64,000 nucleotides of DNA, taken from the NCBI RefSeq assembly GCF_000384115.1, contig NZ_KB913029.1, positions 3,509,057 to 3,573,056 on the forward strand. The letters are read 5' to 3'. Shown piece by piece: positions 4,921 through 47,459 of this stretch; the first letter of the stretch is position 1; every line of letters begins with the position of its first letter. A program made the translations under genes and the position numbers. The notes below the pieces were generated by a model that did not search any database, had not been told where the DNA came from, and was given only the letters and a program-made list of their open reading frames with translations. The DNA is from Sporichthya polymorpha DSM 43042 (GTDB lineage Bacteria > Actinomycetota > Actinomycetes > Sporichthyales > Sporichthyaceae).

Positions 4921-4953
4921 CGTTCAACAAGGGGTGACACCCCTTGTTGAACG
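4921..4953. repeat. Perfect 33-bp palindrome with CAAGGGGTGACACCCCTTG core (copy 1)
   Basis: Sixteen-base arms (CGTTCAACAAGGGGTG and its complement) around a single A. The core is identical to the palindrome at 34050-34082, while the outer arms differ but remain complementary. It lies just downstream of the hydrolase stop codon and before the sigR promoter, so it could be an intrinsic terminator without a T tract. It could also be a protein-binding site or a dispersed palindromic repeat. Confidence 0.8.
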
Positions 4954-7979: not shown

Positions 7980-9226
7980 GGTCGCACGTCGGGCCGCTGA
8001 TCCCGGTCGCGGCGGTCGTCGTCGTCGCCGCGGTCGCGCACACGGCCGCCGTCGGGGTCGTCGACCCATGGGTGGCCCTGGCGTTCGCCGCCTTCGTCGG
8101 CTTCGGCGAACTCGTCCGCCTGACGCTGCCGGGGGAGCGGGACGCCGCCCCGCTCGGCGTCGCCGGCGCGCTGGCCTACTGCCTGCTGCCCGAGGTCGCC
8201 GGCACCCCGGCCGAGCACGGGGCGTCCCAGGTCGTCGCGGTCGCCGCGATCGGGATCCTCGTCGGCGGGTTGCCGCACGCCGCGGCCGGCCGGGTCGTCG
8301 GGCTGGAGGACGCGGCGCGGCGCCTGCTCGTCGTCGCGGCCGCGGCCGCGGCCTTCCGACCGGTGGTGGACCCCGACGCGGTGGGGCTGGACCCCGGCCC
8401 GGGGCTGGCCGCGGTGATGATCGGCGTGCTGCTGGGGGTCCTGATCCTGGACGCCCTGCTCGCGGCCCTGAGCCGGGCCTCGACCGAGCGAGCCCGGCTC
8501 GGGGCGACGTGGCGGGACGAGCTCCGCACCGAGCTGAGCATCGGCTCGGCGATCGGCGCCACCGGGATGTTGATCGCGCTCGCGGTCGGCGTCATGGACC
8601 TGTGGGCGATCCCGGTCTTCTGCGCCCCGCTGCTGCTGACCCAGTTCTCCTTCCGCCGCTTCGTCGCGATCCGCGAGACCTACCTGCAGACCGTCCGATC
8701 GCTGTCCCGCGTCACCGAGCTCGGCGGGTACACCGAGACCGGCCACGCGCGCCGGGTCAGCGAGCTCGCGCTCGCGGTCGGCCGCGAGCTCGGCCTCGCC
8801 GGCGACGACCTGCGCGACCTGGAGTACGCGGCGCTGATGCACGACCTCGGGCAGCTCTCGCTCGCCGAGCCGATCCCGGGCGGCGCGACGATCATGGTCG
8901 ACGCCGGGGAGCAGCGCCGGATCGCGGAGGAGGGCGCCCGCGTCATCCGCGCCACCGGCGTGCTGGACCGGGTCGCCGACATGGTGGAGCGCTCGACCGA
9001 GCCGTACCGGCGTCCGCACGAGGCGATGGACCCGACGCTCCCGCTCGGGGCGTCGGTGATCAAGGCCGCGAACGCCTTCGACGACCTGGTCGGTGAGTCG
9101 ACGTCGTCCCGGGTCCGCCTCGACGCCCTGGAGCGGCTGCGCCTCGGCATGGCCTACGAGTACGACCCGCGCGTCGTCGCGGCGCTGTCCCGCGTGGTCG
9201 AGCGGTCCCTGAAGAGCTCGGTCTGA
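7976..9226 (+). CDS. Membrane-bound degenerate HD-domain protein
   Basis: A 416-residue paralogue-like partner of the preceding gene: hydrophobic N-terminal half (residues 5-230) and a C-terminal HD domain. It keeps the first histidine (TETGHARRVSE) and an HD pair (LMHDLGQLS), but the HH-GYP segment is replaced by PYRRPHEAMDP, so the GYP signature is missing. Catalysis is therefore doubtful; it may act as a regulatory or heterodimer partner of the intact HD-GYP protein. GTG 7976 overlaps the upstream stop (GTGA). Its own stop codon is followed at once by a 13-bp minisatellite. Confidence 0.75.
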   Translation: MRSHVGPLIPVAAVVVVAAVAHTAAVGVVDPWVALAFAAFVGFGELVRLTLPGERDAAPLGVAGALAYCLLPEVAGTPAEHGASQVVAVAAIGILVGGLPHAAAGRVVGLEDAARRLLVVAAAAAAFRPVVDPDAVGLDPGPGLAAVMIGVLLGVLILDALLAALSRASTERARLGATWRDELRTELSIGSAIGATGMLIALAVGVMDLWAIPVFCAPLLLTQFSFRRFVAIRETYLQTVRSLSRVTELGGYTETGHARRVSELALAVGRELGLAGDDLRDLEYAALMHDLGQLSLAEPIPGGATIMVDAGEQRRIAEEGARVIRATGVLDRVADMVERSTEPYRRPHEAMDPTLPLGASVIKAANAFDDLVGESTSSRVRLDALERLRLGMAYEYDPRVVAALSRVVERSLKSSV

Positions 9227-9340
9227 GCGGGCGCATTCAGCGGGCGCATTCGGCGGGCGCATTCGGCGGGCGCATTCGGCGGGCGCATTCGGCGGGCGCA
9301 TTCGGCGGGCGCATTCGGCGGGCGCATTCGGCGGGCGCAT
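9227..9340. repeat. 13-bp minisatellite, 8.8 copies
   Basis: Unit GCGGGCGCATTCG is repeated eight times plus a partial copy, almost without variation (one A in the first unit). It begins on the base after the upstream stop codon and ends 12 bp before the next start codon, filling the intergenic space. There are no spacers, so it is not a CRISPR. Copy-number change by slippage would alter the spacing between the two genes. Confidence 0.95.
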
Positions 9341-9352
9341 AGGGTCCCCGGC

Positions 9353-9856
9353 ATGGATCTGCAGGCCGGCGCACCCAAGCGCAAGCCGCTGTCCCGGCTG
9401 GGCCGGAGCTGGCGGCTGGGGACGCTCGCGGTCGCCTTCGGCCTGCTGATCCACGGCTCCGGCTGGGGCGACGACGACCTGTTCCCGTTCGGGCCGATGT
9501 CCCAGTACTCCTTCCGCATCGACCCGAACGGCGAGATCCGCGCGCTCTGGGTCGAGGCCGACCTGGCCGACGGCTCGCACCGTCGCCTCGACATCTCCAA
9601 CTCCGACGACGTCGGGGTGGCCCGGGCCGAGCTCGAGGGACAACTGCACCTGATCATCGCCGAGCCGCAGCGGCTCGCGACGCTCGCCGAGGCCTGGCAA
9701 CGCCTGCACCCGGACCGCCCCGAGCTGCGCCGGATCGTGGTCGGGCAGGACGTCGTCGAGTTGCGCGACGGACGCCAGGCCGACCGGCGCCAGGACGTGT
9801 TCACGTCCTGGGACGTCGTGCCCGGCGCGGCCCCGATCGACCCGGTGCCGGGGTGA
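9353..9856 (+). CDS. Conserved hypothetical protein linked to an HTTM-type gene
   Basis: A 167-residue product: a basic N-terminus, one hydrophobic segment near residues 27-38, then FPFGPMSQYSFR and a soluble beta-rich region rich in Asp/Arg. The single helix suggests membrane anchoring with the C-terminal domain outside, although it could be an uncleaved signal. The next gene starts only seven bases downstream, so they are surely cotranscribed. Small proteins with a similar FGPMS motif occur, as I recall, next to vitamin K-dependent carboxylase-like (HTTM) proteins. No catalytic motif is visible, and the function is unknown. Confidence 0.65.
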   Translation: MDLQAGAPKRKPLSRLGRSWRLGTLAVAFGLLIHGSGWGDDDLFPFGPMSQYSFRIDPNGEIRALWVEADLADGSHRRLDISNSDDVGVARAELEGQLHLIIAEPQRLATLAEAWQRLHPDRPELRRIVVGQDVVELRDGRQADRRQDVFTSWDVVPGAAPIDPVPG

Positions 9857-34049: not shown

Positions 34050-34082
34050 GTGTTGACAAGGGGTGACACCCCTTGTCAACAC
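34050..34082. repeat. Perfect 33-bp palindrome with CAAGGGGTGACACCCCTTG core (copy 2)
   Basis: Sixteen-base arms (GTGTTGACAAGGGGTG and complement) around a central A. The 19-base core equals that of copy 1 (4921-4953) while the outer arms differ, yet still pair. It sits 14 bp after the stop of the secreted barrel gene, convergent to the oxidoreductase gene, so a terminator role is possible. Confidence 0.8.
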
Positions 34083-34084
34083 CG

Positions 34085-34115
34085 GTCGACCAAGGGGTGA
34101 CAACCCCCGGTCGAC
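34085..34115. repeat. Degenerate third palindrome of the same family
   Basis: GTCGACC ... GGTCGAC arms (seven bases) enclose CAAGGGGTGACA followed by an imperfect right half. It begins three bases after copy 2. The left half-core is intact, but the right half has mutated so the inner stem is broken. Confidence 0.6.
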
Positions 34116-46095: not shown

Positions 46096-46195
46096 GTTCT
46101 GCTCATGCATGAGCGGAGTGTCGATTTTCGGGCATCCGCTGTCCGAATTTCGACCACCCGGTCATGCAAGAGCCACCACTCGCTCATGCATGAGC
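46096..46195 (+). repeat. Repeat element copy A (palindromes GCTCATGCATGAGC)
   Basis: A 78-bp unit (46096-46173) made of GCTCATGCATGAGC (46101-46114), an imperfect stem-loop GTCGATTTTCGG...CCGAATTTCGAC, and a decayed palindrome GGTCATGCAAGAGC (46160-46173), followed by a further perfect GCTCATGCATGAGC at 46182-46195. The unit is about 90% identical to the inverse complement of copy B (47343-47421). Confidence 0.9.
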
Positions 46196-46237
46196 GGACT
46201 GCGGGCTCGGGCAGCGCGTCCCGGGCGGGACGGTGCC

Positions 46238-46293
46238 AGCGGGGACGGGTGAACGGGGACGGGCGAGCGGGGACGGGTCAGCGGGGACGGGTC
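46238..46293. repeat. 14-bp tandem repeat, four copies
   Basis: Unit AGCGGGGACGGGTC with small variants, immediately at the 3' end of the AbiEi/DUF559-like gene and overlapping its stop codon by two bases. Confidence 0.85.
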
Positions 46294-47266
46294 AGCTCAA
46301 GTAGCGGCCGCGGCAGCGTTCGAGGGCGCGGGCGAGTCCAGCGTTGATCTTGGCGGCGAGGATCTCGGGGTTGTTCGCCTCGTACCAACCCCAGCGGATG
46401 ATCTCGGCGCCGGTGTCGAGGAGTTGCTGATGCCGGTACCGCTCGGCGCGGATCCGGCGGACGGTGTCGAGACGGTTGACGCCGACGGACTTCTCGGTGC
46501 CGTCGGCCTCCCCGATCACCAGGATCGGGAGGTGGTCCCACAGGCAGTCCACGAGGTAGGCGTCCTCGCCGTTGTTCACGATGACGGCCTGCTGCCACTT
46601 GGGCAGGATCACGCCCTTCGCGTACATGCCGACGTGGGACACCGACTCCAGGACCGACTGCGTCCATGGGCTGGCGAACGTCAGCGCCTTTCGGGCCTGT
46701 TCGATGCCGGGGCGTCCCTCCGACGCCTCGAGGATGGCGTCCAACTCGGGCTTGGTGGTGAGCCCTTTCCGCAGGGCTGACTCGGCGAACACGACAGATC
46801 GGTTGAACGGCAGCGCGGACGACAGGTCGAGCAACGTGCGCGCCGGGGAGGTCAGGGGGACATCGTGACGCCGGATCACGTGCTCGGCCGGCAAGGGCGC
46901 TGAGCGCAGGTAGTAGTCGTTCTTGTGGGTCCCGGAGACGCCGGGGTCGTCGGTGCAGACGATCAGCGCGGGCGGCGGACGGTCGAGGAAGTCCAGCCCG
47001 AGGATCTGCGCCGCCGACGTCCCCGCCGCCACGACGTTCTGCCGGTGCAGCGCCAGGCGCAGTGCCTGGATGTCCTGCGCGTGCAGGGTTTCGGACCCCG
47101 CCGCAGCCGCGGCGCGGTCCTCGGCGGAGACGAGCACGCCCCGCCGCAGAACGACGATGCGGTTCCGCTTCACCGCCGTCCGCAGCGTCGCGTGGGTGAA
47201 CCCGAACTCGGCCGCCCGCCGGCGCAGGAACGGCCCGGTTCCGAGGGGTACCAAGGGCTCCAGCAT
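46292..47266 (-). CDS. AbiEi-like / DUF559-type nuclease-fold protein
   Basis: A 324-residue protein. N-terminal winged-helix-like domain (about 10-60: FGFTHATLRTAVKRNRIVVLRRGVLVS) as in AbiEi antitoxins, a central AbiEi-like region (to about 160), and a C-terminal Vsr/DUF559-like PD-(D/E)XK domain with E207 (QSVLESVS), D240 (YLVDCLW) and the GEADGTEK motif (E253, D255, K259). Such solitary fusion genes are common in actinobacteria; whether they are antitoxins or nucleases is not settled. No AbiEii toxin is adjacent. ATG 47266. The gene is bracketed by inverted copies of a 78-bp repeat, suggesting a mobile or repeat-associated unit. Confidence 0.8.
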   Translation of the reverse strand: MLEPLVPLGTGPFLRRRAAEFGFTHATLRTAVKRNRIVVLRRGVLVSAEDRAAAAAGSETLHAQDIQALRLALHRQNVVAAGTSAAQILGLDFLDRPPPALIVCTDDPGVSGTHKNDYYLRSAPLPAEHVIRRHDVPLTSPARTLLDLSSALPFNRSVVFAESALRKGLTTKPELDAILEASEGRPGIEQARKALTFASPWTQSVLESVSHVGMYAKGVILPKWQQAVIVNNGEDAYLVDCLWDHLPILVIGEADGTEKSVGVNRLDTVRRIRAERYRHQQLLDTGAEIIRWGWYEANNPEILAAKINAGLARALERCRGRYLS

Positions 47267-47305
47267 CGGGCGAGGGTGCCATAACGACCTGTCGACGACC
47301 CCGAC

Positions 47306-47314
47306 TTATCCACA
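47306..47314 (+). promoter_or_regulatory. Perfect DnaA-box sequence TTATCCACA
   Basis: A single nine-base match to the DnaA-box consensus 40 bp upstream of the AbiEi/DUF559-like gene start and inside the repeat-bracketed unit. A single box is not an origin. Confidence 0.4.
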
Positions 47315-47342
47315 GGCCCGCCCCGCCCGCCCTTGTCGCTCT

Positions 47343-47421
47343 GCTCATGCATGAGCGGGTGGTCGAAATTCGGACATCGGGAGCCGGGAAATCGACACTC
47401 TGCTCATGCATGAGCAGAGCG
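47343..47421 (-). repeat. Repeat element copy B, inverted relative to copy A
   Basis: Contains GCTCATGCATGAGC at 47343-47356 and a longer 22-bp palindrome CTCTGCTCATGCATGAGCAGAG at 47398-47419, separated by the stem-loop-like middle. Read on the minus strand it aligns with copy A over about 78 bp with roughly 90% identity. It begins 76 bp upstream of the AbiEi/DUF559-like gene start. Confidence 0.9.
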
Positions 47422-47459
47422 ACGGGCCTCGGGAGCAGCGGGCGGGGGCGCCGGAAGCC

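Follow-up and report, generated by a model that had tools for sequence, protein, structure and literature searches.

A nuclease gene bracketed by hairpin repeats in Sporichthya polymorpha: a candidate REPtron-like system with an enzyme unrelated to RAYTs

The locus and its bracketing repeats

We analyzed a 64,000-nt stretch of the Sporichthya polymorpha DSM 43042 genome (the window), in which a nuclease gene lies between two repeat copies, A and B. The features of the locus are as follows.

46292..47266, minus strand: AbiEi-Vsr-like nuclease gene, 324 aa (open reading frame, sister-species orthologs, PADLOC, AlphaFold2)
46670..47266, minus strand: residues 1-199, candidate repeat-binding module made up of an AbiEi-type winged helix and an antitoxin-like domain (structure match)
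46319..46657, minus strand: residues 204-316, Vsr / I-Bth0305I-like PD-(D/E)XK nuclease domain (structure match, alignment)
46098..46198, no strand: copy A, the 3′ bracket, with a hairpin unit at 46101-46173 and an extra palindrome at 46182-46195
47335..47423, no strand: copy B, the 5′ bracket, with palindromes at 47343-47356 and 47402-47415
47306..47314, plus strand: TTATCCACA, resembling a DnaA box and located between the gene's start codon and copy B
46227..46296, no strand: 14-bp tandem array of about five copies, overlapping the 3′ end of the nuclease gene

A repeat unit is a pair of 14-bp palindromes, in most cases spaced 59-60 bp apart, with arms GGTCGA..TCGAC and a variable loop; in copy B, the palindromes have these arms together with outer arms GTCGCTCT/AGAGCGAC. 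The exact palindrome GCTCATGCATGAGC occurs at 46101, 46182, 47343 and 47402, with a degenerate copy at 46160. When up to two mismatches are allowed, 0.22 copies are expected in the window by chance, and none of 100 shuffles contained five. As single-stranded DNA, each copy folds into a long hairpin (z = -6.3 for copy A and -10.9 for copy B).

A first-pass annotation had described this locus as a gene between inverted 78-bp repeats of about 90% identity. Bracketing units are present at both places, but copy A is longer than described, comprising one unit plus the extra palindrome. The two copies are 89% identical over 75 nt and, as inverted repeats, 81% complementary over 104 nt; the contrast with the direct orientation (72%) is a weak one because each unit is itself a near-palindrome. 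The annotation had also put perfect palindromes and a stem-loop 76-97 bp outside the gene, in agreement with the hairpin folding and with nearest palindromes at 76 and 96 bp beyond the gene ends, and it had noted a perfect DnaA box and a 14-bp tandem repeat inside the unit; the DnaA-box-like site and the tandem repeat are both present there. The DnaA-box-like site is the sole TTRTCCACA in the window. The gene's neighbors encode a fatty-acid desaturase and a HerA-like ATPase, and no AbiEii nucleotidyltransferase toxin gene is adjacent to it.

Domains and fold of the protein

Pfam and NCBIfam, searched with normal cut-offs, assigned no family to the window protein, and we therefore placed it by structure. 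The AlphaFold2 model has a pLDDT of 94.9 and a pTM of 0.90. When the model was compared with known structures (VIA-align), residues 1-199 matched AbiEi (6y8q, Z 11.8) and Rv2827c (1zel, Z 10.1). Residues 204-316 matched the homing endonuclease I-Bth0305I (3r3p, Z 11.4, 2.7 Å, with 96 residues aligned on a 97-residue chain), followed by 3hrl (Z 9.9) and Vsr (1cw0, Z 8.6). In an alignment of 78 relatives, E207, D240, E253 and R278 are invariant and D255 is nearly so. The PADLOC defense library gave an AbiEi match (E 7e-11), and against Pfam the AbiEi-like domain stays below the cut-off. The model thereby confirms a predicted fusion of an AbiEi-like DNA-binding module to a Vsr / I-Bth0305I-like PD-(D/E)XK nuclease, the two folds that had been recognized from the sequence.

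Both parts have characterized counterparts. For the first, Streptococcus agalactiae AbiEi and M. tuberculosis Rv2827c are autorepressors, and the 23-bp inverted repeats to which they bind lie in the promoters of their own genes (PMC7319586). For the second, I-Bth0305I dimerizes on a target that is nearly 60 bp long (PMC3943268). The length of the latter target is close to the 59-60 bp spacing of the palindromes here, which may be a coincidence.

Dispersed copies of the repeat in Sporichthya

The palindrome GCTCATGCATGAGC has 28 exact copies at 14 loci in the 5.5-Mb single-contig genome, and 13 of these chromosomal loci are gene-less. The copies are arranged as doublets, with 25 of the 28 palindromes paired, compared to at most two in 2000 random draws. 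Exact copies are found in three Sporichthya species (28 in the window genome, 11 in G001 and 35 in G002); in the sister genus, G003 has a single copy and G004 has zero, and a further 35 genomes of the class have none. Inspection of 38 units found no GTAG or CGTC tag at their ends. The window gene has orthologs in G002 (93% identical) and G001 (71%), each accompanied by the same repeats; the G001 contig ends inside the 3′ copy. The gene itself is single-copy, and its nearest paralog in the genome shares 33% identity with it. The suggestion that the gene and its repeats may be one mobile element is not supported: the gene stays single and the gene-less repeats multiply, as with RAYTs and REPINs and unlike an ordinary insertion sequence.

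We compared occupied and empty sites between sister species. Related repeat copies are present at the counterpart site in G002, the nearest species, for 13 of the 14 loci, indicating that turnover is slow. Locus L024 is occupied in the S. polymorpha genome only and is empty in G002 and G001, and the unit at L044 is found in G002 only, the orthologous S. polymorpha site having no repeat. That site (near C1:2299550-2300186) carries a small two-gene toxin-antitoxin-like insert, which from our reading we take to be MazF-like. For the repeats of a paralogous gene (L034 type), all four sites examined in G002 are occupied, and L251 carries a copy where L101 does not. The clean excision at empty sites that the first-pass annotation had suggested looking for was not found: in the sister-species comparisons, the flanks were too diverged to define junctions, and neither a clean empty site nor a duplicated target nor a product of excision was seen.

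At two loci (L017 and L027), the repeat unit is read in frame inside a coding gene, adding about 25-30 residues, in a manner reminiscent of the Rickettsia palindromic elements. The host genes are, presumably, FlhF-like and CobG-like, as judged by reading; copies were relied upon as lying inside genes only where they are read in frame, as in these two cases. The in-frame copies and the presence differences between sister species count in favor of the REPtron-like reading proposed below, as do a near-absence from plasmids and the lack of any match in phages; the slow turnover and the lack of clean empty sites count against it.

The same repeats might instead be kept for a domesticated role in genome maintenance, with the nuclease processing hairpins or cruciforms that form at them during replication. 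Hairpin folding, the DnaA-like site, slow turnover, positions near gene ends and the near-absence from plasmids all agree with such a role. We nevertheless consider it quite unlikely, as each gene has an unrelated repeat family that differs among related genomes (see below), a pattern better fitted by selfish pairs.

A role in defense, with a restriction- or abortive-infection-type nuclease and repeats that serve as self marks or remain as integration scars, is suggested by the AbiEi similarity in the defense library and by the Vsr/REase-like fold. It appears very improbable. There was no match in phages; the repeats bracket the gene and disperse within the same chromosome; and the gene's neighbors are the desaturase and the ATPase in place of an AbiEii toxin.

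Bracketing across the gene family

Distant relatives of the gene, in the same genome and in sister genomes, are also bracketed, each by a different sequence. Examples of the bracket repeats are listed by locus.

L069: GCTCATTCATGAGC with CTCATACG hairpins
L072: GCATCCATGCC
L030: GCGCTTCACTCGC
L034: AAAGGGTGACACCCCTT
L039: CCCGAAAGCGCA

Related proteins have related repeats, as seen in the groups L038/L039/L077/L081/L083, L030/L075, L034/L085 and L032/L082. In S. polymorpha, the repeat families of three paralogs are found at many more loci. The L034-type (F34) repeats form near-identical, perfect A-tract/T-tract hairpins of about 52 bp at 14 loci (L087-L100), and orthologous sites in G002 also carry copies.

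We surveyed 297 genomes of the class, of which 95 contain a relative at E ≤ 1e-10, and scored 63 relatives for inverted matches between their 300-bp flanks. A match of at least 20 was found for 46% of the relatives, compared to 0 of 171 control genes (called by a rough GC-frame method) and 0 of 746 mismatched pairs; at a score of at least 16, the proportions were 63% of relatives, 2.3% of control genes and 0.3% of mismatched flank pairs (Mann-Whitney p = 1.7e-19). The gene is thus associated with flanking repeats family-wide, but not universally: about 37% of relatives score below 16 within 300 bp and have no detectable bracket. Bracket arms are self-complementary (score of at least 16) in 64% of cases, compared to 1.6% of random segments, and consequently arm orientation, inverted or direct, is not diagnostic.

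In the genomes searched, the repeat families are genome-specific. When 18 bracket arms were searched together against 17 genomes, every match listed fell in the arm's own genome. Gene-less copies were present in at least 14 of the 17 genomes, with at least 27 sites in G022, at least 14 each in G048 and G157 and at least 13 in G029 (all counts are lower bounds, with 25 candidates scored per genome); for G061, G182 and G257, there was none among the matches listed. Across sister genomes, repeat families track the presence of the gene. The F69 type occurs in G003, together with cross-hits of its homologue F70; F70 and F76 occur in G004, and F72 and F29 in G001. The one weak exception is a pair of weak F30-like repeat matches in G001, where an F30-type gene was not found. 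In G004, the F70-type gene (G004:C112:12517-13438) is split by a frame change and many diverged F70 repeats remain, possibly a gene-repeat pair in decay.

These results bear on what had been put forward as a refutation, namely repeats at many unrelated sites. The repeats are indeed scattered, yet each family matches a resident gene; the proposed test was wrongly set, as the REPs that belong to RAYTs are scattered as well and the match between repeat and resident gene is what matters. The co-occurrence of copies and gene family that had been proposed as a check holds, apart from the exception above.

The dispersed hairpins could also be terminators of transcription, or they could be ordinary MITEs mobilized by a different transposase, with the bracketing produced by chance insertion. 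The F34 copies, as perfect A-tract/T-tract hairpins near gene ends, look the part. The difference in bracketing between relatives and controls (46% versus 0%), the copies upstream of the gene and the genome specificity of the repeats make this explanation the least credible that we considered. In addition, a search for the Y1/RAYT transposase (Y1_Tnp, PF01797) found none in ten genomes including S. polymorpha, with positive controls matched.

A DnaA-box-like motif upstream of the genes

In the 200 bp upstream of the gene, 37 of 95 relatives and 3 of 179 control genes have the motif TTRTCCACA; 0 of 95 relatives have it downstream. Its core, TCCACA/TGTGGA, lies upstream of 85 of 95 relatives and 15 of 179 controls, and downstream of 7 of 95. 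Among 56 well-bracketed relatives, 47 have the core in the interval from the upstream repeat to the start codon. None of 13 gene-less copies has the full motif nearby. From its sequence, we take the motif to be a putative DnaA box. A DnaA-box-like leader is unusual for a nuclease gene.

Repeats close to the start codon, combined with an AbiEi module, raise the alternative that they are operator sites, where the AbiEi-like module is an autorepressor and the dispersed copies are its regulon, as the 23-bp operators of S. agalactiae AbiEi and Rv2827c would lead one to expect (PMC7319586). Such known autorepression on inverted repeats weighs against mobilization, as binding need not imply it. We still regard the operator reading as unlikely. 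Repeats also lie downstream of the gene, and few dispersed copies lie between divergent genes (1 of 14 for F34, 2 of 14 for F29 and 0 of 6 for F30, using a rough open reading frame caller); many sit near gene ends, and some fall within genes. The repeat families also turn over between genera, and the catalytic residues are invariant.

Interpretation and comparison with known systems

Taken together, the locus is probably part of a REPtron-like system in which a nuclease unrelated to RAYTs spreads or maintains its own hairpin repeats. The AbiEi-like module would recognize the palindromic repeats around its gene, and the Vsr / I-Bth0305I-like domain would nick or cut the repeats, or their single-stranded hairpins at replication forks. 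Repair or replication would then copy the short, gene-less hairpin units to new sites and keep them alike. We infer that this mobilization acts in trans, as RAYTs are thought to do with REPINs, and the DnaA-box-like leader site suggests that expression may be tied to replication. The broader proposal is that selfish pairs of repeat and nuclease form a large family in the Actinomycetes, as a parallel to REPtrons, with several independent pairs per genome; in each pair, the AbiEi-Vsr-like nuclease would recognize and spread a private hairpin in trans by an undescribed, replication-linked (DnaA box) route of nick or break copying. We judge the case for this proposal to be evenly balanced.

REPtrons have a single-copy enzyme gene, flanking palindromes and dispersed hairpin doublets (PMC3116915, PMC3733652). 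The system described here shares with REP/REPIN elements and their RAYTs (REPtrons; TIRYTs/TIRtrons) a single-copy chromosomal enzyme gene between palindromic repeats, and repeats that are dispersed, largely extragenic, hairpin-forming and arranged as inverted doublets with a preferred spacing, together with, presumably, repeat-specific enzymes. It differs in its enzyme (AbiEi plus a Vsr-like PD-(D/E)XK nuclease in place of an HUH/Y1 tyrosine transposase), in having many unrelated repeat families per genome, in its DnaA-box-like leader and in the absence of the GTAG/CGTC tag. The analogy with REP sequences and RAYTs, already drawn in the first-pass annotation with a PD-(D/E)XK enzyme in the transposase's place, is strengthened by family-wide bracketing, gene-less copies, genome specificity, co-occurrence and the lack of a RAYT in the genomes searched.

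The other known systems each resemble one part of the arrangement. The EDxHD / Vsr-like homing endonuclease I-Bth0305I has the same catalytic domain fold and conserved acidic residues; here, in contrast, the DNA-binding part is AbiEi-like, there is no intron or intein, and the repeats bracket the gene and disperse without it. In type IV AbiE systems, the AbiEi antitoxins share the N-terminal winged helix and the domain that follows, and known ones bind inverted repeats (PMC7319586), whereas here a nuclease is fused, the AbiEii gene is not adjacent and repeats flank the gene on each side and recur throughout the genome. MITEs and insertion sequences likewise have inverted repeats about one open reading frame and short, gene-less copies elsewhere, but here the gene does not multiply, there is no known transposase fold and target duplication was not found.

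The system is therefore set apart from the known kinds considered: unlike RAYTs, it has no HUH/Y1 enzyme; unlike AbiE, it has no toxin as a partner; and unlike insertion sequences, it has no full-length element that multiplies. We count it as a new kind because a defining feature of each is missing. The open-access literature searched contained nothing relevant on DUF559, AbiEi or Vsr in connection with palindromes, inverted repeats or transposition. The window locus is thus a repeat-plus-nuclease unit from a large family that is apparently undescribed, in line with what had first been supposed.

REP-like repeats occur in many bacteria, and CGTC REPs have no known mobilizing enzyme (PMC3733652). 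The present findings tie an unrelated enzyme family, by a tight and testable link, to hairpin repeats dispersed in genomes throughout a major class of bacteria; the system would also mean that the REPtron arrangement arose independently a second time. The link suggests a function for the abundant group of ‘AbiEi/DUF559’ genes, and it supplies many natural enzyme-target pairs for the study of sequence-specific nucleases.

Other repeats in the window

A second repeat family, of GGGTGWCACCCCTT hairpins, is found in the window at 4929-4945, 34058-34074 and 34092-34105; these hairpins are of the type that brackets the L031 and L034 nuclease genes elsewhere in the S. polymorpha genome. The window also contains a 13-bp tandem array of GCGGGCGCATTCG, with about nine copies, at 9201-9356.
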